A stretch of 37,079 nt of DNA from a bacterium (lineage in GTDB: Bacteria > Verrucomicrobiota > Verrucomicrobiia > Limisphaerales > UBA11358). The notes under the pieces were generated by a model. That model was not told the origin of the DNA, made no database searches, and saw only the letters and a program-made list of their open reading frames with translations. Shown here in pieces: positions 130 through 36,479 of the stretch. The stretch covers positions 1 to 37,079 of the forward strand of contig JAJXXW010000002.1 of the NCBI GenBank assembly GCA_021780905.1, in the 5' to 3' direction. Every line of letters begins with the position of its first letter. The stretch's first letter is position 1. A program made the position numbers and the translations under genes.

Positions 130-402
130 TTCCTGCCGGAAGCGCGATTTTTCCGCCGGGAATCCTCATTTTTCCTGCCGGAAGCATGGTTCTTCCCGCC
201 GGCGTCAGCCTGGTCGCCTTGGAAAAGAGGTGGTTCCGGTGGAAATGGAGGCAATTCCGCTTGGAAGCCAGAATATGCCGGTCAGAAGCGAAACCATTCC
301 AACCGGAAGCCAGCCTCTCACCTTGGAAACATCACGATTCCTTCCGGCATCAGGCCGATTCCAGTTGGAAGCAAGGCGATCCCGGTTGGAAAAATGAGGT
401 TG
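130..402. repeat. Degenerate 21-bp tandem repeat block, about 13 units
   Basis: A unit of the form TTCCnnCCGGAAGC plus about 7 variable bases recurs with a period of 20-21 bases, with starts near 130, 151, 172, 193, 214, 235, 256, 277, 298, 319, 339, 360 and 381. The core TTCC..GGAA is itself nearly palindromic. Because 21 is a multiple of three, both strands encode 7-residue repeats: on the plus strand FPAGS and FPPGI, on the minus strand IFPTGIA, LLPTGIG and LMPEGIV. Units have drifted and the frame is broken by 20-bp units and stops, so no single ORF covers the array. I treat it as a minisatellite-like or decayed repeat-protein region. Confidence 0.75.
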
Positions 403-492
403 GTTTCAGCCTTTGCAGGCAGCGAGTTGCCCAGCGCACCGGCGATTATAATTATTGCGACGAGTGGGGCAGAACTTCGAGGCGCTGAAAGT

Positions 493-708
493 TCATCCGG
501 TGGGCGCGGCCAGGAACTCCGTCGCGTCGGCGGCTTCGGCTTCGGGCACCTGCACGCGAATGCCACCCACGGCGAGGGCTTAGCCTTCCATGCCGAGCGC
601 GGCGGCCTCGTCGGCGACGAACGGATGAAAACCGGCGGCTTCGAGGCGCGAGAAAACCAACTGGGCGTCGGCGGGATTGAGCGCCTTGTAAATGGTGGTT
701 GGGTTCAT
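493..708 (-). pseudogene. DUF2007-like small protein with one in-frame stop
   Basis: Reading from ATG at 708-706 gives MNPTTIYKALNPADAQLVFS and then RLEAAGFHPFVADEAAALGM, followed by an in-frame TAA at 582-580 after 42 codons. The same frame then continues with VGGIRVQVPEAEAADATEFL up to TGA at 495-493, for 71 codons plus the stop. Length and pattern (early xAxNxxDAxLV, late GGIRVxVPExxAxxAxxFL) fit the DUF2007 'putative signal-transducing' family of about 70 residues. The ATG overlaps the TGA of the upstream PIN-TRAM gene (ATGA), so it was probably translated by coupling as the last gene of this operon. The single TAA may be a true nonsense mutation or a sequencing error. Confidence 0.6.
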
Positions 709-1721
709 TTGCCGTTTTCCGTTTTGACCTCGGCGAAAACGAGGACGCCGGCGCCGGTCTGGACGGTGCTCAGGACGCGGGCGGCGACGGTCTGGCCGAT
801 GTATGCCTGGCCGTTGTTGAGAATCACCATCGTGCCGTCGGGCAGGTAGCCGAGGCCCTGGCCTTTCTCCCGGCCTTCGCGGACGATCTTGAGCTGGATG
901 TTTTCGCCGGGGATGAGCGCCGCCTTCATCAGTTGTCCGATTTCATGGAGGTTGACGCAGTCAACGCTCTGCAGGCCGGCGACTTTGGCGAGGTTGAAAT
1001 CGTTGGTGAACAGCTTGGCGTTCAGGTTGCGGGCGAGGCGGACGAGCTTGGCGTCCACGCCTTTTTCCTCGGGAAAATCGCCGTCGTGGATGCGGACTTC
1101 GAGCTTGGAATTATTTTGCAGGCGGTTGAGCATTTCAAAGCCGCGCCGGCCGCGGGCGCGTTTCACGTCGTCGGCGGAGTCGGCAATCTGCTGGAGTTCC
1201 AGCAGCACGAAGCGCGGCACGAGGACCAGGCCCTCGATGAATTTCGCCTCGATCAGGTCGGCGATGCGGCCGTCAATGATGACGCTGGTGTCGAGCAGCA
1301 GCAGGTTTTCGGGCTTGTTTTGCGGCGCAAACCGGACGTAGGGAATGATGAGCGAAAAATCCTCCTTGTTGCTGCGCATCGCCAGCACCATGCCGATGTA
1401 GCCGAAGGCGAGGAACAGCGCGAGGCGGATGAGCTGGCGCGTGTTGCCGTCGCCGTCGCCGAACAATCCGGAATGATCCACCAGTAGCGCGACCAGCCAG
1501 CCGAGAAACAGCCCGAAGGTCGTGGCGGAAAACGCGCGGAGCGAAAAGCCCTTCAACATCTCATCCACGGCGATGAGCAGCCCGCCGAAGCCGAAGCCGA
1601 TCATCATGCCGAGGATTTCGCTGTGCTCATGACCGACGAAGGACTGCGCCTGGCTGATGGCATAGCCCGCCATGATGCACAGGCCGAGGAAAATGATTCG
1701 AATGGGCCAGAGCGGATTCAT
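705..1721 (-). CDS. Membrane-anchored PIN-TRAM domain protein (YacL-like)
   Basis: This 338-residue protein has four hydrophobic segments in the first 120 residues, then a PIN domain beginning at LLLLDTSVIIDGRIADLIEA with acidic residues typical of the metal site (DTS, later D in FTNDFNLAKVA). A C-terminal TRAM-like domain follows (PGENIQLKIVREGREKGQGL, then GQTVAARVLSTVQTGAGVLV). The order and length match the YacL/PilT-like group of predicted membrane-tethered RNases, a family whose substrates are poorly known. It starts 6 bases after the mlaD stop, and its own stop overlaps the next start, so it belongs to the mla operon. Membership in the family is clear, but function is not. Confidence 0.85.
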   Translation of the reverse strand: MNPLWPIRIIFLGLCIMAGYAISQAQSFVGHEHSEILGMMIGFGFGGLLIAVDEMLKGFSLRAFSATTFGLFLGWLVALLVDHSGLFGDGDGNTRQLIRLALFLAFGYIGMVLAMRSNKEDFSLIIPYVRFAPQNKPENLLLLDTSVIIDGRIADLIEAKFIEGLVLVPRFVLLELQQIADSADDVKRARGRRGFEMLNRLQNNSKLEVRIHDGDFPEEKGVDAKLVRLARNLNAKLFTNDFNLAKVAGLQSVDCVNLHEIGQLMKAALIPGENIQLKIVREGREKGQGLGYLPDGTMVILNNGQAYIGQTVAARVLSTVQTGAGVLVFAEVKTENGK

Positions 1722-1727
1722 GGGCGG

Positions 1728-2711
1728 TTATGGGGGGGTGGCGAGCGGCGTGTGGTTCACGGTGTTGGTTGGGGGCGGCTTGTGCGACCACAGAATGCCC
1801 CAAAGCCCCAGCCGGTTCAAGTTGCTGCTGGTGACGGCCAGGTTGGCGGCGATGGTCTGGACGTGGGTCGCCAGTTCCGGGTTTTGCAGCACCGTCCCGG
1901 CGAGGCCTTTGCCCGCCTGCAAATCGGCGGCGATCTGCTTGAAGCTGGCCGAGGCGTCGGCGATATCCCGGGTCGCCTGGCTGATGTTGACGCTGTTCGT
2001 GGCGAGAATGTTGCTGGCCGAATCCGACAGTTTAATGAGGCCGGCGGAGAACATCACCGCGTTGCTGACGGCCACGCCCACCTGCGCGCCGTTGGTGGCA
2101 ATGATGCCGTTGATGTCCTGCACGGTGCCGATCGCCTGCTCGGTGAACTGCTTCAGGTTGGAGATCGAGGCGCCGAAGCCCGCGAGAGTTTGCGCGTTGA
2201 GCACCTGCGCCCGCAAATCGGTCACGGACGCGTCGAGCTTCTGGGCGGTTTCGTCAATGCGCTGGATGAAGCCCGCCGCGCTGCGCGCGACCTCCTGCAA
2301 GTTGAACGGCGACTGGCAGTCCACATCCGCGCCGGCGGCCAGTTTGGGGTCCGTGTTGGCCGTCGGAATCACCGACACAAACTGGTCGCCCAAAAAGCCC
2401 GCCTGCTCAATGACGAACCGCGCGTCGTGATAAATCGGATAGTCGTTGTAGATTTTCAGGAACATGGTCACGCTTTTGCCGTCCGGCGCGAGAACAATCC
2501 GGTCCACCGTGCCGACCTGCACCCCGGCGAGCAGCACGCCGGCGCGGGGCTTGATGCCGCCGACGTTGGCCGCGTGCAGACGCAGTTCGTAGGTGCCGCG
2601 CCAGAGGCTGGTGCTCTTGCTGAACTGGATCAGCAGCGTGCCGAGCAGCGCCAGCCCGACGAAGACGAACAGGCCGACTTTGAGTTCCAAACGCGGTTTT
2701 TCCATGGTCAA
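1728..2711 (-). CDS. mlaD: MlaD-like MCE-domain lipid transport protein
   Basis: This protein of about 327 residues has an N-terminal signal anchor (LKVGLFVFVGLALLGTLLIQ) followed by one MCE domain of about 100 residues (LRLHAANVGGIKPRAGVLLA, GVQVGTVDRI) and a long helical C-terminus with Asn/Ala-rich segments. MlaD forms the periplasmic hexameric ring that passes phospholipids to or from the MlaFE transporter. Two starts are possible: a TTG at 2711-2709 overlapping the mlaF TGA, with GAAGGA at 2726-2721 about nine bases upstream, and an ATG at 2705-2703. The spacing favours TTG. It is third in the minus-strand operon mlaE-mlaF-mlaD. The C-terminal region is longer than in E. coli MlaD. Confidence 0.85.
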   Translation of the reverse strand: MTMEKPRLELKVGLFVFVGLALLGTLLIQFSKSTSLWRGTYELRLHAANVGGIKPRAGVLLAGVQVGTVDRIVLAPDGKSVTMFLKIYNDYPIYHDARFVIEQAGFLGDQFVSVIPTANTDPKLAAGADVDCQSPFNLQEVARSAAGFIQRIDETAQKLDASVTDLRAQVLNAQTLAGFGASISNLKQFTEQAIGTVQDINGIIATNGAQVGVAVSNAVMFSAGLIKLSDSASNILATNSVNISQATRDIADASASFKQIAADLQAGKGLAGTVLQNPELATHVQTIAANLAVTSSNLNRLGLWGILWSHKPPPTNTVNHTPLATPP

Positions 2712-3454
2712 AAAATATTTTCCTTCGCATCCGCCACGCCGTCCACGAACTGCCGGATCACCGCGTCCGGCGAGGCGAAAATCGCCTCCGGTGTGCCGTT
2801 CGCGTAGATTTTCCGCGCGTGCAGCATCAGCACATGGTTGCCCACGCGCCGCGCACTGCGCATGTCGTGCGTGACGACAATGCTCGTCACCTTCAACTGG
2901 TCGCGCACGCGGATGATCAGCTTGTCAATGCTGTCGGACACAATCGGGTCCAGCCCGGTGGTCGGCTCATCATAGAGCAATATCTGCGGTTCGTAAATGA
3001 TGGCGCGGGCCAGCCCGACGCGCTTGCGCATGCCGCCGGACAGCTCGGCGGGAGTTTTCTTTTCCGTGCCCGGCAGGTCCACCATCTCCAGCGCGGCGGC
3101 CACGCGCTGCGTAATTTCCGCCTCGGTCAAATGCTCGTGCCGGCGCAGGCCGAACGCCACGTTCTCCGCGACCGTCATCGAATCGAACAGCGCCGCGCCC
3201 TGGAACACCATGCCGAACTTCCGGCGCACCCGCAGCAACTGGCGCTCGTTCATCGCCACGATGTTTTCGCCGTCCACCAGCACCGCGCCGGCGTCCGGCT
3301 GGAGCAGGCCGATGATGTGCTTGAGCAAAACGCTTTTGCCACCGCCGCTGCGGCCGATGATGACGACCGATTCGCCGTTTTCAATCCGAAAACTCACGTC
3401 TTCCAGCACCGCCTGTGCGCCGAAACTTTTATGGAGCTGACGCACTTCAATCAT
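2708..3454 (-). CDS. mlaF: MlaF-like ABC transporter ATP-binding protein
   Basis: From ATG at 3454 the protein is 248 residues long and begins MIEVRQLHKSFGAQAVLEDV. It shows Walker A (GRSGGGKS), the ABC signature (LSGGMRKRVGLARAI), Walker B (ILLYDEPTTGLDP) and the switch His (VVTHDM). The GGMRKR signature is typical of the MCE-associated MlaF/Mkl subgroup. It should power lipid transfer through the MlaE permease at the inner membrane. The frame is open for another 43 codons upstream, but those overlap mlaE and have no family match. The chosen ATG overlaps the mlaE stop as ATGA, so the two are probably translationally coupled. Confidence 0.92.
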   Translation of the reverse strand: MIEVRQLHKSFGAQAVLEDVSFRIENGESVVIIGRSGGGKSVLLKHIIGLLQPDAGAVLVDGENIVAMNERQLLRVRRKFGMVFQGAALFDSMTVAENVAFGLRRHEHLTEAEITQRVAAALEMVDLPGTEKKTPAELSGGMRKRVGLARAIIYEPQILLYDEPTTGLDPIVSDSIDKLIIRVRDQLKVTSIVVTHDMRSARRVGNHVLMLHARKIYANGTPEAIFASPDAVIRQFVDGVADAKENIF

Positions 3455-18459: not shown

Positions 18460-19905
18460 ATGACAATCACTGGCGTGAGCGAATTTCTCCAGCGCGTGGA
18501 AAATGCCGTCCGGCAACGCCGGCTGTTTGTGCGCGGCCAAGAAATCCTCGCCGCCGTCTCCGGCGGCGCGGACTCGATGGTGTTGCTGCACGTTCTTCAT
18601 TCGCTCGCTCAAAAAAAGCGCTGGACGATTTCCGTCGCGCATTTCAACCACCGGCTGCGCGGCCGCGCCAGCGATGCGGACGAAAAACTGGTCCGGCAGA
18701 CGGCAAAAAAACTGCGGTTGAAATTTTTTGGCGAAAGCGCGGATGTAAAAAAAATCGCGGCGCAAACCAAACTTTCGATTGAAATGGCCGCGCGAAAGTT
18801 GCGCCATGAATTCCTGGCGCAGACGGCGCGGAAACAGAAAATTCCCACCGTCGCACTGGCCCATCATGCCGATGACCAGGTGGAGCTGTTCTTCCTGCGG
18901 CTGCTGCGCGGGGCCGGCGGCGAAGGTCTGGCGGGCATGAAATGGCGCTCGCCGTCGTCCGCCGACAAAAAAGTTGTGCTCGTCCGCCCGCTGCTGGCTT
19001 TTTCCAAGGCCGAGCTGCTGGCGTTCGCCGGTGAAAACAAAATCCGCTTCCGCGACGACGCCACCAATTCAGCCAGCGACTTTCTGCGCAACCGCATTCG
19101 CAATGAACTGCTGCCGCTGCTGCGCAAAAACTACCAGCCCGCCGTGGACAAAACCGTTTTGCGGCTGATGGAAATCACCGGCGCGGAGGCGGAATTTGCG
19201 AGCGAGGCGGCCAGAGAATTTTGTGGGAGACGAGGTGACGAGTCTCAAATCAAAATCGGAAATAAATTAGGGACTCCGCACGTCGTCTCCCACAACTTCA
19301 CGGAGTTGCCGGTCGCCGTTCAGCGAAAAGTTTTGCAGCAGCAGTTGGCGGGGCTGGGCGTGGCTGCGGATTTTGAACTGGTCGAGCGGCTCCGTGAAAC
19401 GCCGGACAGGCCGGCCAGTGTTGCCGCCGATGCCTCGGTGGTTCGCGATGCTGCGGGCAAAGTTTCCTGCCGGCGGCAGGAAAGCGGCGACTTCAATTCC
19501 GCCGAACTCAGGTTGAAATTGTCGGGCAGGGCGGGGCGGGCGGAATTTGGCGGTGGAAAATTTCGCTGGCAAATCCGATCGCGGCAAAAAGCCGCCTTGC
19601 CCCAAAAACCAGCCGGCGTGGAATTTTTTGACGCGGACAAGGTCGGCGATCAAATCATCCTGCGGCACTGGCGGGCGGGCGACCGGTTTCAGCCCATCGG
19701 CCTGAAGTCGGCGGTGAAATTGCAGGATTTGTTCACGAACGCCAAGATTCTCGCTGCGCTCCGACGCGAACTGGTTCTGGCCACGGCGGAAAACGGCGAG
19801 ATTTTCTGGGTGGAAGGCTTGCGCATTGGCGAAAAGTTCAAGCTGACGCCGGGGACGGCGCGGGTTTTTGTCTGGTCAGCTCGGCTGCAGCGGGTTGCTG
19901 CGTAA
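18460..19905 (+). CDS. tilS: tRNA(Ile)-lysidine synthetase TilS, with embedded 25-codon repeat
   Basis: From ATG at 18460 the protein has 481 residues. The PP-loop motif SGGADS lies at residues 34-39, followed by FNHRLRGRASDADEKLVRQT, ALAHHADDQVELFFLRLLRG and RDDATN....RNRIRNELLPLL, all TilS landmarks. The C-terminal domain includes HWRAGDRFQPIGLKSAVKLQ. TilS converts C34 of the tRNA-Ile CAU anticodon to lysidine, which is essential for AUA decoding. Residues ~254-279 (CGRRGDESQIKIGNKLGTPH) come from an in-frame palindromic repeat listed separately. A TTG further upstream gives 7 extra residues but no better start. It follows the sedolisin by 43 bases on the same strand. Confidence 0.93.
   Translation: MTITGVSEFLQRVENAVRQRRLFVRGQEILAAVSGGADSMVLLHVLHSLAQKKRWTISVAHFNHRLRGRASDADEKLVRQTAKKLRLKFFGESADVKKIAAQTKLSIEMAARKLRHEFLAQTARKQKIPTVALAHHADDQVELFFLRLLRGAGGEGLAGMKWRSPSSADKKVVLVRPLLAFSKAELLAFAGENKIRFRDDATNSASDFLRNRIRNELLPLLRKNYQPAVDKTVLRLMEITGAEAEFASEAAREFCGRRGDESQIKIGNKLGTPHVVSHNFTELPVAVQRKVLQQQLAGLGVAADFELVERLRETPDRPASVAADASVVRDAAGKVSCRRQESGDFNSAELRLKLSGRAGRAEFGGGKFRWQIRSRQKAALPQKPAGVEFFDADKVGDQIILRHWRAGDRFQPIGLKSAVKLQDLFTNAKILAALRRELVLATAENGEIFWVEGLRIGEKFKLTPGTARVFVWSARLQRVAA
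19221..19295. repeat. 75-bp palindromic repeat embedded in frame within tilS
   Basis: Perfect 13-bp arms TTGTGGGAGACGA (19221-19233) and TCGTCTCCCACAA (19283-19295) enclose 49 bases; the arms continue imperfectly inward (GGTGACGAGTC against GACTCCGCACG). The length is exactly 25 codons, so it leaves the tilS frame intact. The family-conserved sequence appears to resume at FTELPVAVQRKVLQQQL right after it. Confidence 0.85.
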
Positions 19906-20355: not shown

Positions 20356-21612
20356 ATGAAAACTCCGAAGGCTCGGTTCAAGATTTTGCCCTTCACCAAT
20401 CCCCGGACGGGCACGCCAAGCTGGCGGGTCACCGGCACCCGCCGCAACGGGGATCGCATCCGTGAAAACTTCGCCCGCGCCAAAGAGGCGCAGTATCGGT
20501 TCACCGAGCTGGAGGGCGAATTTCATGCCGCCAACGGCGTGGCGGCGCTGCGGGCGACGCGACTGACGGATAATCAGGTCGGCGTTGCCGAAGCCGCTTT
20601 CAAGCGGCTGGAACGGGATGAGGATTTAATCACCGCCGTGGATCATTGGCTGCGCACGGGCAAGCCGGCGTCAGTCAAGGAGTCACCGCGCTTGGACGAG
20701 GCGCTGAAGGTTTTCACCGACTGGCTGACTACCACCCAGGAATTGCGCCCCATGACCAAGGACAACCTGCGCCAACGGGTGACCCGCTTCGTCAGCAACC
20801 TGGGCAACCTGCGGGTGACCGATGTGCTGCCCGAGCACATTGAGCATTTTCTGTCGAATCGGAATGTGTCGGCCAACACCAAGGACGCAGATCGCCGGGC
20901 CCTTTCCAGTTTCTTTTTGTGGTGCATGAAGGGGAAACGGCATTGGGCCGTGAACAACCCCTGTTACGCGGTCGAGATCGAGGGTTTTGCCACCGCCGAT
21001 GACCATGAACCAGTAGTGCTGCCGGTGGACGAATGCCGGGCGCTGTTGCAGGCTGCGGAAAAAATCCAGAAGGGTCGGTCGGTGCCGTATGTGGCGCTGT
21101 GTCTTTTCGGCGGGCTGCGCCCCACTGAAGCAGCGCGATTGACCTGGGATCAGGTCAATCTAAAGGATGGGGAGATTCGATTGAAGGGCGCACAGACCAA
21201 GACCGGCAAGGGCCGGATTGTGGTGATTGATAAAACGCTCAAAGCCTGGCTGAGCCAATATCGCAAGCGTGGCGAGATTTACCGTTCGGCTTATGAAAAA
21301 GATTTGCGCCAAGGTCGTATCAGCATCGGGTATGGGACCAAGACGGACGAGCAGCCGCACTTGCGTCCGTGGGTGTCGGACGTGTTGCGGCACACGGCGA
21401 TCTCGCATTATTTCCGGCTGACGGGCAGCTACGGGCGGACGGCGGAGCAGTTCGGCAATTCAGAGGCCATCATCAAAAAACATTACCAGGGGCGCGTGAG
21501 CAGCGCAGAGACGAAGCAGTTTTATGCGCTGCGGCCGGGTTCTGGGGCCGCGCGACCGCAACCCCAATCCAAGAAACCGGTCAAGCCGACCAGCGGCGCC
21601 GAGCGAATATAG
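20356..21612 (+). CDS. Tyrosine recombinase / integrase
   Basis: This is a complete 418-residue protein with a basic N-terminal arm-type region (PSWRVTGTRRNGDRI), a SAM-like core-binding domain (DNLRQRVTRFVSNLGNLRVT) and a catalytic domain. Catalytic residues are visible: Arg in FGGLRPTEAARLTW, Lys in the TKTGKGRIV beta-hairpin, Arg/His in LRHTAISHYF, and the Tyr nucleophile in IIKKHYQG. It lies about 120 bases right of the point where methyltransferase homology ends, so it probably marks the left end of the element that cut that gene. The strong promoter abuts its ATG. Confidence 0.9.
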   Translation: MKTPKARFKILPFTNPRTGTPSWRVTGTRRNGDRIRENFARAKEAQYRFTELEGEFHAANGVAALRATRLTDNQVGVAEAAFKRLERDEDLITAVDHWLRTGKPASVKESPRLDEALKVFTDWLTTTQELRPMTKDNLRQRVTRFVSNLGNLRVTDVLPEHIEHFLSNRNVSANTKDADRRALSSFFLWCMKGKRHWAVNNPCYAVEIEGFATADDHEPVVLPVDECRALLQAAEKIQKGRSVPYVALCLFGGLRPTEAARLTWDQVNLKDGEIRLKGAQTKTGKGRIVVIDKTLKAWLSQYRKRGEIYRSAYEKDLRQGRISIGYGTKTDEQPHLRPWVSDVLRHTAISHYFRLTGSYGRTAEQFGNSEAIIKKHYQGRVSSAETKQFYALRPGSGAARPQPQSKKPVKPTSGAERI

Positions 21613-27495: not shown

Positions 27496-27775
27496 TCAAC
27501 CGCTGGCGGGAGCCAGCGTTCTGCGTCGCTGCTGGCAGCGGCGGAACAAGGCTTGCAGCGGGTTAGGCGCGGCTCAACGGCACATCGACCCGGCGCACCC
27601 TCACGCGCACTTGGCCCGCCACTTTCAACAACTTGACCCGGACGCTGCCCGCCGTCGCCCGCGCCAGTTCCGTTCCGGCCAGCGCCGGCCCCAAGCGCTC
27701 TACCAGCACGGAGTTCTTCCCCAAACCCAGGCCGTAATAGACCACCGGGCTTTTCACCAATCCGTCTCGCGGTAG
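27496..27775 (-). pseudogene. IS1380-like transposase remnant with internal deletion and frameshift
   Basis: The frame reads VVYYGLGLGKNSVLVERLGP, which resembles the internal 'GLGKNxxL' segment of IS1380 transposases. It then joins directly to VRVKLLKVAGQVRVRVRRVD, which resembles their C-terminal 'LLKIGAxVxxSVRRV' segment. About 150 residues expected between the two are missing. After a stop at RA, a +1 frame continues NPLQALFRRCQQRRRTLAP, the expected last residues. It overlaps the final codons of the SDR gene, so the remnant starts right at that gene's stop. Confidence 0.45.
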
Positions 27776-29346
27776 TCCTTCAGGAATTTTCCCCATACGT
27801 GTTCGCCGGTGTTGAAGCCGGCGATGATCGGGTCCACGATGCGCGCCGCGCCATCCACAATATCCAGCGGCGGATGAAAGCGATGCTCCGCCACCTTGCG
27901 CTCGGCGATGTGCGCCGGGTCTTCGTCCGTCACCCAGCCGGTGTCCACGGCGTTCATGTGGATGCCGTCGGCGTGATAATCGGCGGCGGCGGTGCGCGTC
28001 ATCATGTTGAGCGCGGCCTTGGCCATGTTCGTGTGCGGATGCCGCGTGGTCTTGAACTTCCGGTAAAATTGTCCTTCGACGGCGGAGACGTTGACGATGT
28101 GCTTGTCGCGCTCCGGCGTGCGGAGCATGAGCGGCTTAAGCCGCGCGTTGAGGATGAACGGCGCGATGGCGTTGACGAGCTGCACTTCGAGCAGTTCCAC
28201 CGTGGGCACTTCGTGCATGAGAAAACGCCAGGAATTGCGGTCGCGCAAATCCACCTGCTGCAAATCCTGGTCTAACTGGCCTTGTGGAAACAACGCTTGT
28301 TGCGCGCCCAATTCTTCCGGCAACAGCGGCACCTGCGAGAGCGCGGCGGCGTGGGTGAGTCCGGCCAGTAGTGGGACAGGCATCTTGCCGGTCAAATTGT
28401 TTGGCTTTTCCTCTGAACTGGACCGGCTGGAAGCCTGTCCCGATACCGAACCGCCTTCCGGCAAAATGTGGTAGCCGCGCAGCCCTTCGTAAGCGCCAAG
28501 CAGTTTCGCCGCGTCCAGTGGCAAGTCGTGCAACGACCCGGTCTCGCGTTCCATCATGTGCGCGTAAAAATCCGGCGGCCGCCGCACGGTCTGACACGCG
28601 TTGTTCACGATGAAATCCAGCCGCTGATATTTTGTCATGACGTGTTTGCAAAACGCCTCCACGCTCGGCGTGTGCCGCAAATCGAGTCCGAAAATTTCCA
28701 GCCGATGCCCCCATTCCTTGAAATCCGGTTCGGCGGCGTAACGCATCGCCGAGTCACGCGGAAAACGTGTCGTCACAATGAGATGCGCGCCGCAACGGAG
28801 CAGCTTGATGCCGGCCTGATAGCCAATCTTCACGCGACCGCCGGTGAGCAACGCGACGCGCCCACGCAGGTCGGCAAGTTCGCTGCGCTTGCGGAAATTT
28901 AGTTCCGCGCACGCCGGACAGAGCTGGTCGTAGAAATGATGGATCTGCGAGTAATCCTGTTTGCAGACGTAACAATTCTGGGGCTCGACGACTTCACGGA
29001 AATCGGGATCATTCACCGTTTCCTCCTGCTTGAAGTTGGGCGGCGGAAACACATTCGGCGTGGTGAAAACTTTTTCGCGGCGCAGCTTGCGGATGCCGGT
29101 GGCGTGGAGTCTGGACTGGTCGCGCGTGATTTTCTCCGCCTTGCGCTGCTTGACCTTCGCCTTCACGAGCCGGCGGCGTTCGGCGACGTTGGGACAATAA
29201 ATTTCCCCCGCCGCTTTCAGCAGGCGCGTGCGCTCCGCCTCGGTCAAGGCGCCGAGCAGCGCGCGGTTGGCCGAAGCCTGCTCCAAAATCGCGGCGGCGG
29301 CCTTTAGGGCCTCGACGGAGTGATGCGGGTTGGAATGCGCGGACAT
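27754..29346 (-). CDS. SDR-family oxidoreductase with N-terminal zinc ribbon
   Basis: From ATG at 29346 the protein is 530 residues. An N-terminal helical region of about 120 residues precedes a zinc-ribbon-like segment (CYVC...CPAC). A Rossmann fold follows with the glycine motif [16 protein letters not shown] and the NNAC motif ([15 protein letters not shown]). The active-site region is [20 protein letters not shown] then [16 protein letters not shown]: the usual YxxxK appears as TNMAK, so the catalytic Tyr is not in its normal place. Large SDRs of this layout occur in bacteria and eukaryotes, and their substrate is not known. Residues ~302-325 come from an embedded palindromic repeat. The upstream TTG start adds ten residues and is less likely. 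Confidence 0.82.
28373..28441. repeat. 69-bp palindromic repeat embedded in frame within the SDR gene
   Basis: Perfect arms GGGACAGGC (28373-28381) and GCCTGTCCC (28433-28441) and inner arms CCGGTC/GACCGG (28388-28393, 28421-28426) define a hairpin of 69 bp, exactly 23 codons. On the coding strand it is read as [20 protein letters not shown] plus PVP. The GGGACAGGC..GCAAGATGCC form is a recurrent intergenic repeat type in verrucomicrobial-like genomes (from memory, not searched). Confidence 0.85.
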
Positions 29347-29393
29347 TTTTCTGGCCGCGCAGCATAGCAGTGGCAACCGCGGCGGGCGAATGA

Positions 29394-33563: not shown

Positions 33564-36479
33564 ATGTTTAGCGGCATACCACAGAAAAATCGGGCGGGGG
33601 CGGAGTCCTATTTCGACGAGCATCTTTCCCAAAACGATTATTACACGCAGGGAGAAACTCAACGTGGTCAATGGCTGGGCATCGGGGCGGAACGGTTGGG
33701 ACTGCAACCGGGTGGCGTGGTGACTCGTGAAGCGTTCCTGCACCTCTGCGACAACCAGCATCCAGTGACGGGCGAACAACTGACACCACAGCATTTCAAG
33801 GAGCGAAGGGTTTATTTCGACTTCGTGTGTTCGCCTCCCAAATCCGTTTCCATTCTGGCCGTCACCATGAATGACCGGCGGATCATCGAGGCGCACAAGG
33901 AAGCCTCACAGTTGGCGATGCGTGAACTCGAATCGTTCGCCGCCGCCAGAGTCCGCAAGGGTGGCATTCAGGAGCAGGATCGCACCACCGGCAACCTCGT
34001 CGGCGCGGCCTTCCTGCATACCACGTCCCGCGCCCTTGACCCGCAGTTGCATACGCACTTCGTCCTGTTCAACGCAACCTGGGACAAGAAAGAAGGGCGT
34101 TGGAAGGCATTGCAAACGGGCGATATGTTCGGGGCCATCAACTACGGCACGGAAGTCTATCGCAACGAACTGGCCAAGCGTCTGCACCAAATTGGTTATG
34201 TCACGCGGCGCACCGGCTCGGCGTTTGAGATTGACGGCGTTGACACCAAGTTGATTGAGCGATTCTCGAAACGGTCACAGCAACGGGACATGGCCGTGAA
34301 GCGTCAGGAAACCAAGATCGGTCGCAAGCTCACCAAAAAGGAGATTGCCCATGTCGTCCACCAGTCGCGTCCCAAAAAACTCAAGGGCGTGTCTGACGAA
34401 CAGGTGCGTAACCAGCAACTTGGCGAGATCGGCTTTTTTGAGAAACGCTCCTTACGGAATGTCACCAGCGCCGCCGATGGCAAGCCCAAGCCCTTCGCCC
34501 AATACGTCAGGCCGGATGATGCTCTCGCGCACAGCCTCGCCCATGTCTTTGAACGCCGCTCGGTCGCCCCGCAGCACAAGATTTTGGAAGCAGCATTGGT
34601 GAAAGGTTGCGGTCAATTAGAATTGTCGCAACTGAAGGATAAACTGGCCTTGGATGACAAACTCGTCCGGGTGGGTTCGGAGTATTCGACACGGGAAATT
34701 CTGTCCAAGGAGCTTTACCTGATTCGTGCCGTCAATGCCGGGGTCGAGGCGGTCGCGCCGTTCGTCCACCGTTACGAACCAGCCGCCCATCTCGGCCTCG
34801 ACCAGCGCAAGGCATTGGCGCACGTTCTCACCAGTCCCGACCGTTTCACCGGCTTTCGCGGCCTCGCCGGTTCTGGTAAAAGCACGATGTTGCAAGAGTT
34901 TGCCAGTATCCTGAAAAGTGAGAACAGGCCTTGCCTGTTTTGCGCGCCGACAGCCTCCGCTGCCGACACGCTTCGTAAGGACGGCATGGATGCCATGACG
35001 CTGCAAAGACTGCATGGCAGCTTGGCGGCAGGCGGCAAACTTTCCCCTGGGGTCGTGATTGTCCTCGATGAAGCCGGGGCGGTTGGTCTGGATGACATGG
35101 TGAAATTGTTTGAACTCGCCCGCCGCAACGATTGCCGGGTTATTCTGTCCGGCGATACCGGGCAGCATTCGTCTGTTCCGCGCGGCGATGCGCTTCGCAT
35201 CATCGAACAGTATTCGTCCTACCGTTTTGGCGAGTTGACGACCATTCGCCGCCAGAAGCCGGAAGCGTTCCGGCAGGTGGTGGAACTTGCCGCCGCCAAG
35301 CAAACCGACAAGGCATTTGCCAAGCTCGTCGAGCTCGGCGCGGTCAGCGAAATAGCGAATGATGACGGACAGCTTTATCAACGTGCCGCCGATGCGTATG
35401 TGTCGGCCACGAAGCAGGGCAAATCCGCGCTGCTCGTCTCGCCAACGTGGGCAGAGATTGACGCTGTAACGGAGAAGGTGCGGGAGTCGCTCAAGGCGGA
35501 TGGTGTTATCAGTCAAGATGAGAACACGCATTGCGTGTTTGATTCGCTGTCGTGGACGGTTGCCCAAAAGAAAAGCGCCCGCGAATTTGAACCCGGCCAG
35601 CGGCTGCGTTTCGTCCGGCATACCAAAAAATTTGAGCGCGGCGAAACGGTCGAAGTGGTCGCCACGATGGAAACCGGCCTGCGTGTCCGTCGTCCTGACG
35701 GCACGGAAGTGGATTTCATCCCCGCCAGCGCCGCCGCATCTTTCGACGTGGGTGAGTCCCGCGAATTGAAAGTGGCCGCTGGCGACTGGCTACTGCTCCA
35801 AGCCAACCACGGCAAAGAGTTTATCAACGGCGAACGGGTGCAAGTGAAGACGATTCGAGACGGTCGCATTGCGCTGGCCGATGGCCGCACGATTCCCGCC
35901 GGTTTCGACACCTTCACGCATGGCTACGCTGTCACGTCGCATTCGTCGCAAGGCAAAACCGTGGACGAGGTGCTGCTGGTCGCGTCCTCAAAATCCTTTC
36001 CCGCCGTCAACCGCGAACAATTTTACGTTTCGATTTCGCGTGGCCGCGAGCGTGTCCATATTTTCACCGATGATTCGGAACTGCTCGCCCGCCGCGTCGC
36101 CGATTCGCACGAACGCAAGGCCGCCGTCGAATTGCAGGCGTTGCGCGACGACTTGGCCAAACTCGGTTTCACCCGCAAGGAGCAGGAAAAAACCGCGCCG
36201 CCGCCGTCAACCGCTGCACGTCGTCCGGCACGGCATTTCAGAGTCACCCGGCTGTCGCCCGTTCAAAAGCTCGCCCAAATCGTCGAGGACGTGCGCCGCT
36301 GGCTTGGCCTCGAACACACGGCAACCGTCGCCAAGGAGCAGGCCGCTAAAGCTGATACAACCGAGGCCATGAAACCGGCTGAAAAAATTTCACCTGCGGT
36401 AAAAGAAACGCCGCGGGCGCGCCCGAACATCAAACTAAACGTGCCGCCGCCACACCGTTCGCGTGGCATCGGTATCTAA
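33564..36479 (+). CDS. MobF-family relaxase with helicase domain (TrwC/TraI-like)
   Basis: This is a 971-residue protein. The N-terminal TrwC relaxase domain has the paired tyrosines DYYTQG at residues 26-27 and the three-His metal motif FLHTTSRALDPQLHTHFVLF. The C-terminal part is a RecD-like helicase with Walker A (GLAGSGKST), Walker B (VIVLDEAGAVG), a GDTGQ motif, and the late HGYAVTSHSSQGKTV and YVSISRGRERVHIFT motifs. It would nick oriT, stay bound to the 5' end and unwind the strand for transfer to a recipient. Full-length TraI-type proteins are longer (about 970 for TrwC), so this is complete. The extreme C-terminus is Pro/Lys-rich. Two near-identical hairpins lie inside the gene. No coupling protein or T4SS gene is visible in the window. 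Confidence 0.93.
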   Translation: MFSGIPQKNRAGAESYFDEHLSQNDYYTQGETQRGQWLGIGAERLGLQPGGVVTREAFLHLCDNQHPVTGEQLTPQHFKERRVYFDFVCSPPKSVSILAVTMNDRRIIEAHKEASQLAMRELESFAAARVRKGGIQEQDRTTGNLVGAAFLHTTSRALDPQLHTHFVLFNATWDKKEGRWKALQTGDMFGAINYGTEVYRNELAKRLHQIGYVTRRTGSAFEIDGVDTKLIERFSKRSQQRDMAVKRQETKIGRKLTKKEIAHVVHQSRPKKLKGVSDEQVRNQQLGEIGFFEKRSLRNVTSAADGKPKPFAQYVRPDDALAHSLAHVFERRSVAPQHKILEAALVKGCGQLELSQLKDKLALDDKLVRVGSEYSTREILSKELYLIRAVNAGVEAVAPFVHRYEPAAHLGLDQRKALAHVLTSPDRFTGFRGLAGSGKSTMLQEFASILKSENRPCLFCAPTASAADTLRKDGMDAMTLQRLHGSLAAGGKLSPGVVIVLDEAGAVGLDDMVKLFELARRNDCRVILSGDTGQHSSVPRGDALRIIEQYSSYRFGELTTIRRQKPEAFRQVVELAAAKQTDKAFAKLVELGAVSEIANDDGQLYQRAADAYVSATKQGKSALLVSPTWAEIDAVTEKVRESLKADGVISQDENTHCVFDSLSWTVAQKKSAREFEPGQRLRFVRHTKKFERGETVEVVATMETGLRVRRPDGTEVDFIPASAAASFDVGESRELKVAAGDWLLLQANHGKEFINGERVQVKTIRDGRIALADGRTIPAGFDTFTHGYAVTSHSSQGKTVDEVLLVASSKSFPAVNREQFYVSISRGRERVHIFTDDSELLARRVADSHERKAAVELQALRDDLAKLGFTRKEQEKTAPPPSTAARRPARHFRVTRLSPVQKLAQIVEDVRRWLGLEHTATVAKEQAAKADTTEAMKPAEKISPAVKETPRARPNIKLNVPPPHRSRGIGI
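34920..34941. repeat. Hairpin 1 inside the relaxase gene
   Basis: AACAGGC (34923-34929), CTT, GCCTGTT (34933-34939), preceded by GAG and followed by TT. It has the same reading frame and layout as hairpin 2, with one stem base pair swapped. Confidence 0.6.
35520..35541. repeat. Hairpin 2 inside the relaxase gene
   Basis: AACACGC (35523-35529), ATT, GCGTGTT (35533-35539), preceded by GAG. Compared with hairpin 1, the stem pair G:C has become C:G, a compensated change that keeps the stem. Confidence 0.6.

Follow-up and report, generated by a model that had tools for sequence, protein, structure and literature searches.

A 75-bp dimer of GTRG-tagged REP hairpins lies in frame within the tilS gene of a bacterium of the Limisphaerales (Verrucomicrobiota), where it was likely moved by a transposase into a loop of the TilS protein and kept through the tolerance of that loop. 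TilS is held to be essential. Among related genomes the same linker is used repeatedly, and in frame, by unrelated repeat families, which is new.

A REP dimer within tilS

In the window (the whole stretch of DNA that was analysed, 37,079 nucleotides of contig JAJXXW010000002.1), tilS occupies positions 18460..19905 of the + strand and encodes a tRNA(Ile)-lysidine synthetase of 481 amino acids, with matches to TIGR02432, PF01171 (residues 29-216) and PF11734 (TilS_C, residues 401-469); the protein therefore has both the PP-loop domain and the C-terminal domain of the TilS family. A preliminary description had reported an in-frame palindrome of 75 bp with perfect 13-bp arms in this gene, and the sequence is indeed found at 19221..19295, where it begins at codon position 3 and encodes TilS residues 254-279 in a frame that stays open across it. 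It had been assigned to the C-terminal part of the protein; in fact it is preceded by the N-terminal PP-loop domain and followed by the C-terminal domain.

By its fold, its blastn matches and a unit pattern, the element is a pair of head-to-head GTRG-tagged REP hairpins, that is, a REP dimer (BIME/REPIN), which as a whole belongs to neither strand. The left unit (19223..19246, + strand) reads GTGG-GAGAC-GA-G-GTGA-C-GA-GTCTC, with no mismatch to the pattern of the family, and is followed at 19247..19252 (+ strand) by AAATCA in the position of a 6-nt 3' tail, delimited by bits of conservation, that is mostly W-R-A-Y-Y-T across the family. The right unit (19270..19293, - strand) is inverted, reads GTGG-GAGAC-GA-C-GTGC-G-GA-GTCCC and has one mismatch. 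Between these two units of 24 nt lies an A+T-rich spacer of 23 nt, and the arms of the element can be extended to 30 nt at 83% complementarity. The 75 bp fold as RNA at -40.7 kcal/mol (z -7.3) and also fold as DNA (z -5.0), with none of 200 shuffles equally good in either case. A 13-bp inverted pair within 120 bp was present in 10 of 100 windows simulated with a Markov-1 model, and the perfect arms by themselves are weaker evidence than the multi-copy occurrence of the element, which rules out chance. A search across the window with Rfam gave no match. Both ends of the element have GTGG, the family having mostly GTAG; because the variant is matched in the two arms, either two events are needed or one arm was corrected by the other.

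The repeat family and its hairpin

Further copies, proposed in the preliminary description as a check, are readily found: blastn of the element's own genome returned 15 rows at 13 distinct places, itself included, so the sequence is not single. A half-unit pattern allowing up to 3 mismatches matched this genome 30 times, compared with 2 matches for the reversed control. When 146 genomes from the genus and order were searched with at most 1 mismatch, 99 (own genome included) contained the family and none the reversed control, and the exact pattern was absent from all 239 genomes sampled from the same phylum outside the order. At least 120 named stretches hold the pattern; among the 80 matches listed, nearly all are labelled Verrucomicrobiota, many being Limisphaerales, Pedosphaera or subdivision 3, and a single one Proteobacteria. 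The family is new in having been found, in the samples, solely in this order, and it may equal one of the 24 families in Figure 1 of PMC3733652.

The unit is laid out as GTRG followed by GAGNC / GA / S / GTNA / S / GA / GNCTC, and its hairpin consists of a 5-bp stem, a GA/GA internal loop, one further pair and a GTNA cap. As in REPs of the GTAG superfamily, the tag (mostly GTAG across the family) is unpaired at the foot of the hairpin, the stem falls within 5-13 bp and the loop within 2-20 nt, the stem changes are complementary, and the units are interspersed, multi-copy and often arranged as head-to-head dimers, of which 61 distinct ones were counted in the fetched loci.

The hairpin of the family covaries. 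From the fetched loci, 343 distinct sites were collected by a search that left all stem positions free, many of these loci having been fetched with a pattern that left the inner and fourth pairs free and fixed the rest of the stem. Among the sites, 211 have C-G and 126 have G-C as the inner pair; the fourth stem pair is A-T at 99, C-G at 94 and T-A at 61, and also A-A at 39 and A-G at 36. Stems are fully complementary at 202 sites and complementary in four of five pairs at 119, which together make up 321 of the 343. Among 101 distinct units, the covariation score was 0.361 as against 0.129 for shuffled units (0 of 500 as high) and at most 0.078 for slid versions, and all six pairs show changes on both sides; one of the five measures, further pair types, was not above its shuffles (13 versus 12.3). 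Conservation does not exceed 0.26 bits upstream of GTRG and amounts to 0.28-0.76 bits at six positions past the hairpin.

Copies within protein-coding genes

Eighteen loci of this genome (G000) contain 15 dimers, 8 of which are situated in ORFs with a Pfam family: tilS, nadE, mutY, mutS, and ORFs for a B12-binding/radical-SAM protein, a GH20 protein, a propeller protein and an MmeI-like methylase. Domain matches flank or span the insert in the first five, and do so through weak repeat matches in the propeller ORF. The insert of nadE (residues 319-342) is placed exactly between the CN_hydrolase domain (65-318) and the NAD_synthase domain (355-602), and that of the B12-binding/radical-SAM ORF (197-227) between domains at 74-187 and 261-418. 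Three further dimers (L006, L009 and L011) are in ORFs without a family and were left out of the 8, and three (L008, L012 and L033) lie outside any ORF of this kind. For the dimer L042, whose surroundings are propeller-like, NCBIfam gave no match. Near this dimer and that of L003 (G000:C73 and C65, respectively) there is another palindrome, of the CTCTCCCCATC...GATGGGGAGAG type, which shares one frame of the propeller-like ORF with the dimer.

The closest pair of copies is that of tilS and nadE (91% identity), which are read in the same frame. This frame, RGDE(S/A)Q, recurs in the TilS, NadE, MutY and propeller ORFs; other copies are read in another frame, giving VGDEVTSL or VGVEVTRL. From its sequence, a GTAG tag would give a stop in one of three frames per strand.

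A second palindrome within the window (28368..28446, - strand), of the GTAG-T-GGGACAGGC type and unrelated to the REP family, is in frame as residues 311-337 of an SDR-family gene (27757..29376, - strand) whose SDR matches are at 174-264 and 389-492. In the mutS gene of G017 (L353) the GTAGTGGGACAGGC half of this second palindrome is again found in frame. The window also contains a gene of the phage integrase family at 20356-21612 and, at 33564-36479 (+ strand), a TrwC/TraI-type relaxase-helicase gene (PF08751), which suggests that a conjugative or mobilisable element is integrated close to the end of the window.

The TilS linker in related genomes

Of 48 congeneric genomes, 45 yielded a TilS protein. 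The complete linker, bounded by RLMEIVGAEAEF and LPVAVQRR, could be read in 44 of these, and its left half alone in G009, whose sequence then breaks off at an assembly gap. Where no repeat is recognised, the linker mostly measures 14-26 residues, often 18, so that relatives without the element have a shorter linker rather than the identical residues that would have spoken against an insertion; two long linkers (38 residues in G006 and 36 in G040) fall into no repeat class. A repeat is present in the linker of 19 of the 45 proteins, in nine classes assigned by eye: the REP-dimer family of the window (G000, G009, G021 and G022), the GTAGGGACGG class (G046, G024 and G031), the GTAGCAGCGG class (G027 and G020), the GGGAGCGCC class (G014 and G039), the GTAGCCCGGG class (G017), the GTAGCGTCGAG class (G034), the CCCTCTCC class (G030), a GTAGGACTGACC unit (G038), and short tandem repeats (G026, G047, G016 and G035). 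The linker of G025 resembles a decayed GTAGCGTCGAG copy and was counted as having none. Among the matches listed for a joined query of 11 genomes, made with the classes other than CCCTCTCC, GTAGGACTGACC and tandem, the GTAGGGACGG, GTAGCAGCGG and G014 elements are multi-copy, whereas G017, G034 and G039 each hold essentially one copy of theirs; the G034 element has relatives in G031.

When the 44 congeneric TilS proteins were aligned, insertion blocks of at least 8 amino acids occurred in two or more genomes at the linker alone. The strongest inverted repeat of the gene falls in the linker in 9 of 44 genomes, decayed copies and tandem repeats scoring low. A TilS tree built without the linker columns, its bootstrap not fully settled, requires 15 changes of linker state, with 'none' taken as a state; three are needed for the REP family of the window, forced by well-supported branches, and these may be one gain and two losses. 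The linker of the window is merely 18 codons longer than the commonest one, and so residues must also have been lost; the added length is not a constant 75 bp. The TilS insert shared by G021 and G022 (L105 and L100) keeps its frame and has lost most of the hairpin pairing, and this decay looks as though the palindrome, once lodged, is not maintained.

A wider sample comprised the best 120 of 6447 TilS homologues, in which linker length ranges from 17 to 63 residues. Regular expressions classed 36 of these linkers as the REP family, 33 as short, 13 as GGGAGCGCC, 13 as tandem, 5 as GTAGCGTCGAG and 20 as other, proportions that are biased because the homologues were ranked by likeness to an insert-bearing query. 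A quick tree of the 120 proteins requires 41 changes, 25 of them of the REP family (14 forced); about six of the 'other' rows, as well as P0004, filed as tandem, resemble decayed copies of the REP family, and such misfiling would lower the count. P0007, with the peptide in a linker of 47 amino acids, and P0048, with a linker of 17, are near-clean sisters (SH-aLRT 95). The 120-protein alignment has a second, smaller length-variable place near residues 378-385.

Two other proteins have linkers that, by eye, look like that of TilS. Of 30 fetched loci, nadE was readable in 18 and mutS in 19, own genome included, and the following was assigned by eye. The NadE linker contains the REP-family peptide in G000 and G046 and another peptide, shared by the two, in G027 and G038, most other NadE proteins having shorter linkers. 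MutS has three variable sites, near residues 393, 640 and 193: near 393 the REP-family peptide is found in G000 and G046 and other repeat-like peptides elsewhere, and near 193 there is an insertion in 3 of 19 proteins. The mutS of this genome (L007, ORF 325-3000) has the dimer at residues 393-414 and a second extra stretch at about 640-667, a site that holds several other repeat-like peptides in relatives.

The distribution in TilS could also arise if the linker were an exchange site, where a lodged palindrome is swapped for another repeat by recombination or repair at the hairpin instead of every family making an entry of its own. Sister proteins that carry the REP-dimer peptide (P0008) and a GGGAGCGCC-class repeat (P0075) on short branches (SH-aLRT 92) are what exchange would produce, as is the position of G030, with its CCCTCTCC repeat, adjoining G046 and G031 with GTAGGGACGG (100/100), and the presence of a repeat goes with the loss of linker residues. 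Synonymous divergence between G046 and G024 is lower in the insert (dS 0.52, 32 codons) than in the flanks (1.35 and 1.78), as is expected of exchange and equally of two separate insertions. However, short linkers are interspersed among repeat-bearing ones in the trees, plain gain and loss explains many of the cases, and an interspecies homologous swap of the whole linker would look identical, so that exchange at the hairpin is a rather unlikely account. The linker is probably a loop of the protein that tolerates extra sequence and that such repeats enter again and again.

Structure and constraint of the linker

In an AlphaFold (AF2) model, TilS residues 257-279 are predicted to be coil between helices at 242-256 and 285-298. 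The insert block has pLDDT of 47 and 61, compared with 80.1 for TilS overall, and is modelled as a low-confidence loop; this is not special to the insert, as pLDDT is also low (below 50 over at least 10 residues) at 137-159 and 202-211. The pTM of 0.48 leaves the placement of the domains uncertain. Of the PDB entries, TilS with tRNA (3a2k) matched best, and both there and in the Aquifex TilS (1wy5) a shorter loop precedes the LP or KP..LQRR helix.

Ratios of dN/dS, each computed from few sites without re-alignment, were 0.40 for the linker shared by G021 and G022 (flanks 0.22 and 0.19), 0.46 for the shared insert of G046 and G031 (flanks 0.20 and 0.22) and 0.20 for the insert of G046 and G024 (flanks 0.11 and 0.19), values compatible with weak constraint on the peptide. 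An adaptive peptide, for example one tuning TilS or its tRNA binding, would account for dN/dS below 1 and for the reuse of the RGDE(S/A)Q frame in the TilS, NadE, MutY and propeller ORFs, but close relatives manage with unrelated sequences or no insert at all, the predicted structure is a low-confidence coil, and the shared frame fits the stop-free frames of the element itself, other copies using a different one; adaptation is accordingly improbable. An artefact of assembly or binning might be suspected in draft genomes of tens to hundreds of contigs, in one of which (G009) the assembly gaps lie just past the element, but is very hard to reconcile with the recurrence of the same peptide class, its frame open, in several genomes and on separate branches of the tree. 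The idea that native TilS sequence forms the palindrome by chance, despite the inverted pairs of the simulated windows, is refuted by the 13 genomic places, the 91% identical copy in nadE and the covariation, and retains practically no probability.

Search for a mobilising enzyme

A cognate RAYT was sought in the element's own genome, in 16 genomes (mostly family-rich) and in the 48 congeneric genomes. Within about 500 bp of the 90 best Y1_Tnp loci of these incomplete MAGs, there was no unit of the family; at 7 of the 90 a unit was found about 0.8 kb or further away, and near 16 of them there are other GTRG hairpins. Three congeneric MAGs (G007, G010 and G015; 91, 93 and 73% complete) have 17-29 units and no Y1_Tnp match. 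Over the 48 genomes, units and Y1_Tnp matches correlate (Spearman 0.38, p 0.0075, uncorrected for relatedness). A scan of part of the fetched loci for RAYT frames pointed, outside the set used to build the profile, to L050 and L244, and both were rejected as candidates: L050 is a Y1_Tnp locus without a unit, and the frame of L244 is more than 1 kb from its units. At L048 (G000:C81, 2125-3231), hairpins of GTAGCGCAGACATTCTTGTCTGCG and of inverted GTAGGGCAGGCTTTCCAGCCTGCC alternate at a spacing of about 138 bp beside a Y1_Tnp frame; this array is probably the REPtron of another family. As no cognate RAYT was found, we infer the mobiliser.

Comparison with known repeats

Intragenic REPs are already known as a kind, and Opitutus terrae, a host of such repeats, belongs to another order. 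The preliminary view that palindromes inside genes are little described in this phylum does not hold, as a 2013 survey (Di Nocera, PMC3733652) reports GTAG REPs inside ORFs, most of them in O. terrae, a verrucomicrobium, with the genes for uvrA, DNA ligase and RNA helicase among those affected. According to the same survey, most REPs are intergenic, intragenic insertions may be neutral, being in flexible linkers or loops, most O. terrae GTAG-20 elements have the GTGG variant, and recB of two Xanthomonas was struck at about one site. The present family is like the GTAG REPs described in PMC3733652 in having GTRG at the foot of a small hairpin, complementary stem variants, an arrangement mostly as head-to-head dimers and some intragenic copies. 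It differs from them in its short stem, GA/GA internal loop and S-GTNA-S cap, in being found in one order in the samples, and in the 8 of 15 dimers within Pfam ORFs, as opposed to the mostly intergenic REPs of the survey. The genus-wide use of one linker by many families is not described for the O. terrae REPs in the passages of PMC3733652 drawn on here, and no report of one linker used by many repeat families was found in the open-access literature titles and abstracts searched.

The preliminary description had likened the element to the palindromes embedded in Rickettsia proteins (RPE), which are in-frame palindromes in ORFs likely encoding functional proteins (PMC3733652). The likeness stands as regards behaviour, copies of the palindrome occurring in frame in ORFs that encode unrelated proteins, and does not extend to membership: the intragenic RPE-4 and RPE-6 of R. 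conorii are placed among CGTC-tagged repeats (PMC3733652), whereas the element differs in sequence and has the tag GTRG, by which it is ruled out as an RPE. TnpA-REP (RAYT) recognises single-stranded GTAG with a stem-loop and cleaves mostly at an adjoining CT, and the E. coli REP requires a mismatched bulge (PMC8266576). The present family likewise has a tag and a hairpin, plus a conserved 3' tail; unlike the TnpA-REP systems, it had no cognate RAYT beside it in the 90 loci.

Origin and significance of the insertions

Entry of a transposase-moved REP dimer into a tolerant loop would begin, by analogy with known REPs, with the mobilisation of single-stranded hairpins by a HUH enzyme of the RAYT/TnpA-REP type, perhaps a non-cognate one. 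Selection may then act as a filter that retains a copy only if it is frame-compatible, stop-free and situated in a flexible linker, and as a result of this filter a few linkers, such as those of TilS, NadE and MutS, would become recurrent landing places. The embedded peptide itself would need no function.

On a broader scale, the genus may possibly, in a more tentative reading, run a standing REP-driven diversification of linkers, in which unrelated families enter, decay and replace one another at a few linkers (TilS, NadE and MutS) faster than the enzymes themselves diverge. The acceptance of nine repeat classes, as told by eye, by one TilS linker in 45 congeneric genomes amounts to a natural experiment, and maps protein loops that tolerate insertion. 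Sister sequences that differ by single insertions allow REP movement to be dated and tested. 'Extragenic' repeats are thus a source of new protein sequence in a lineage besides Rickettsia and Opitutus.
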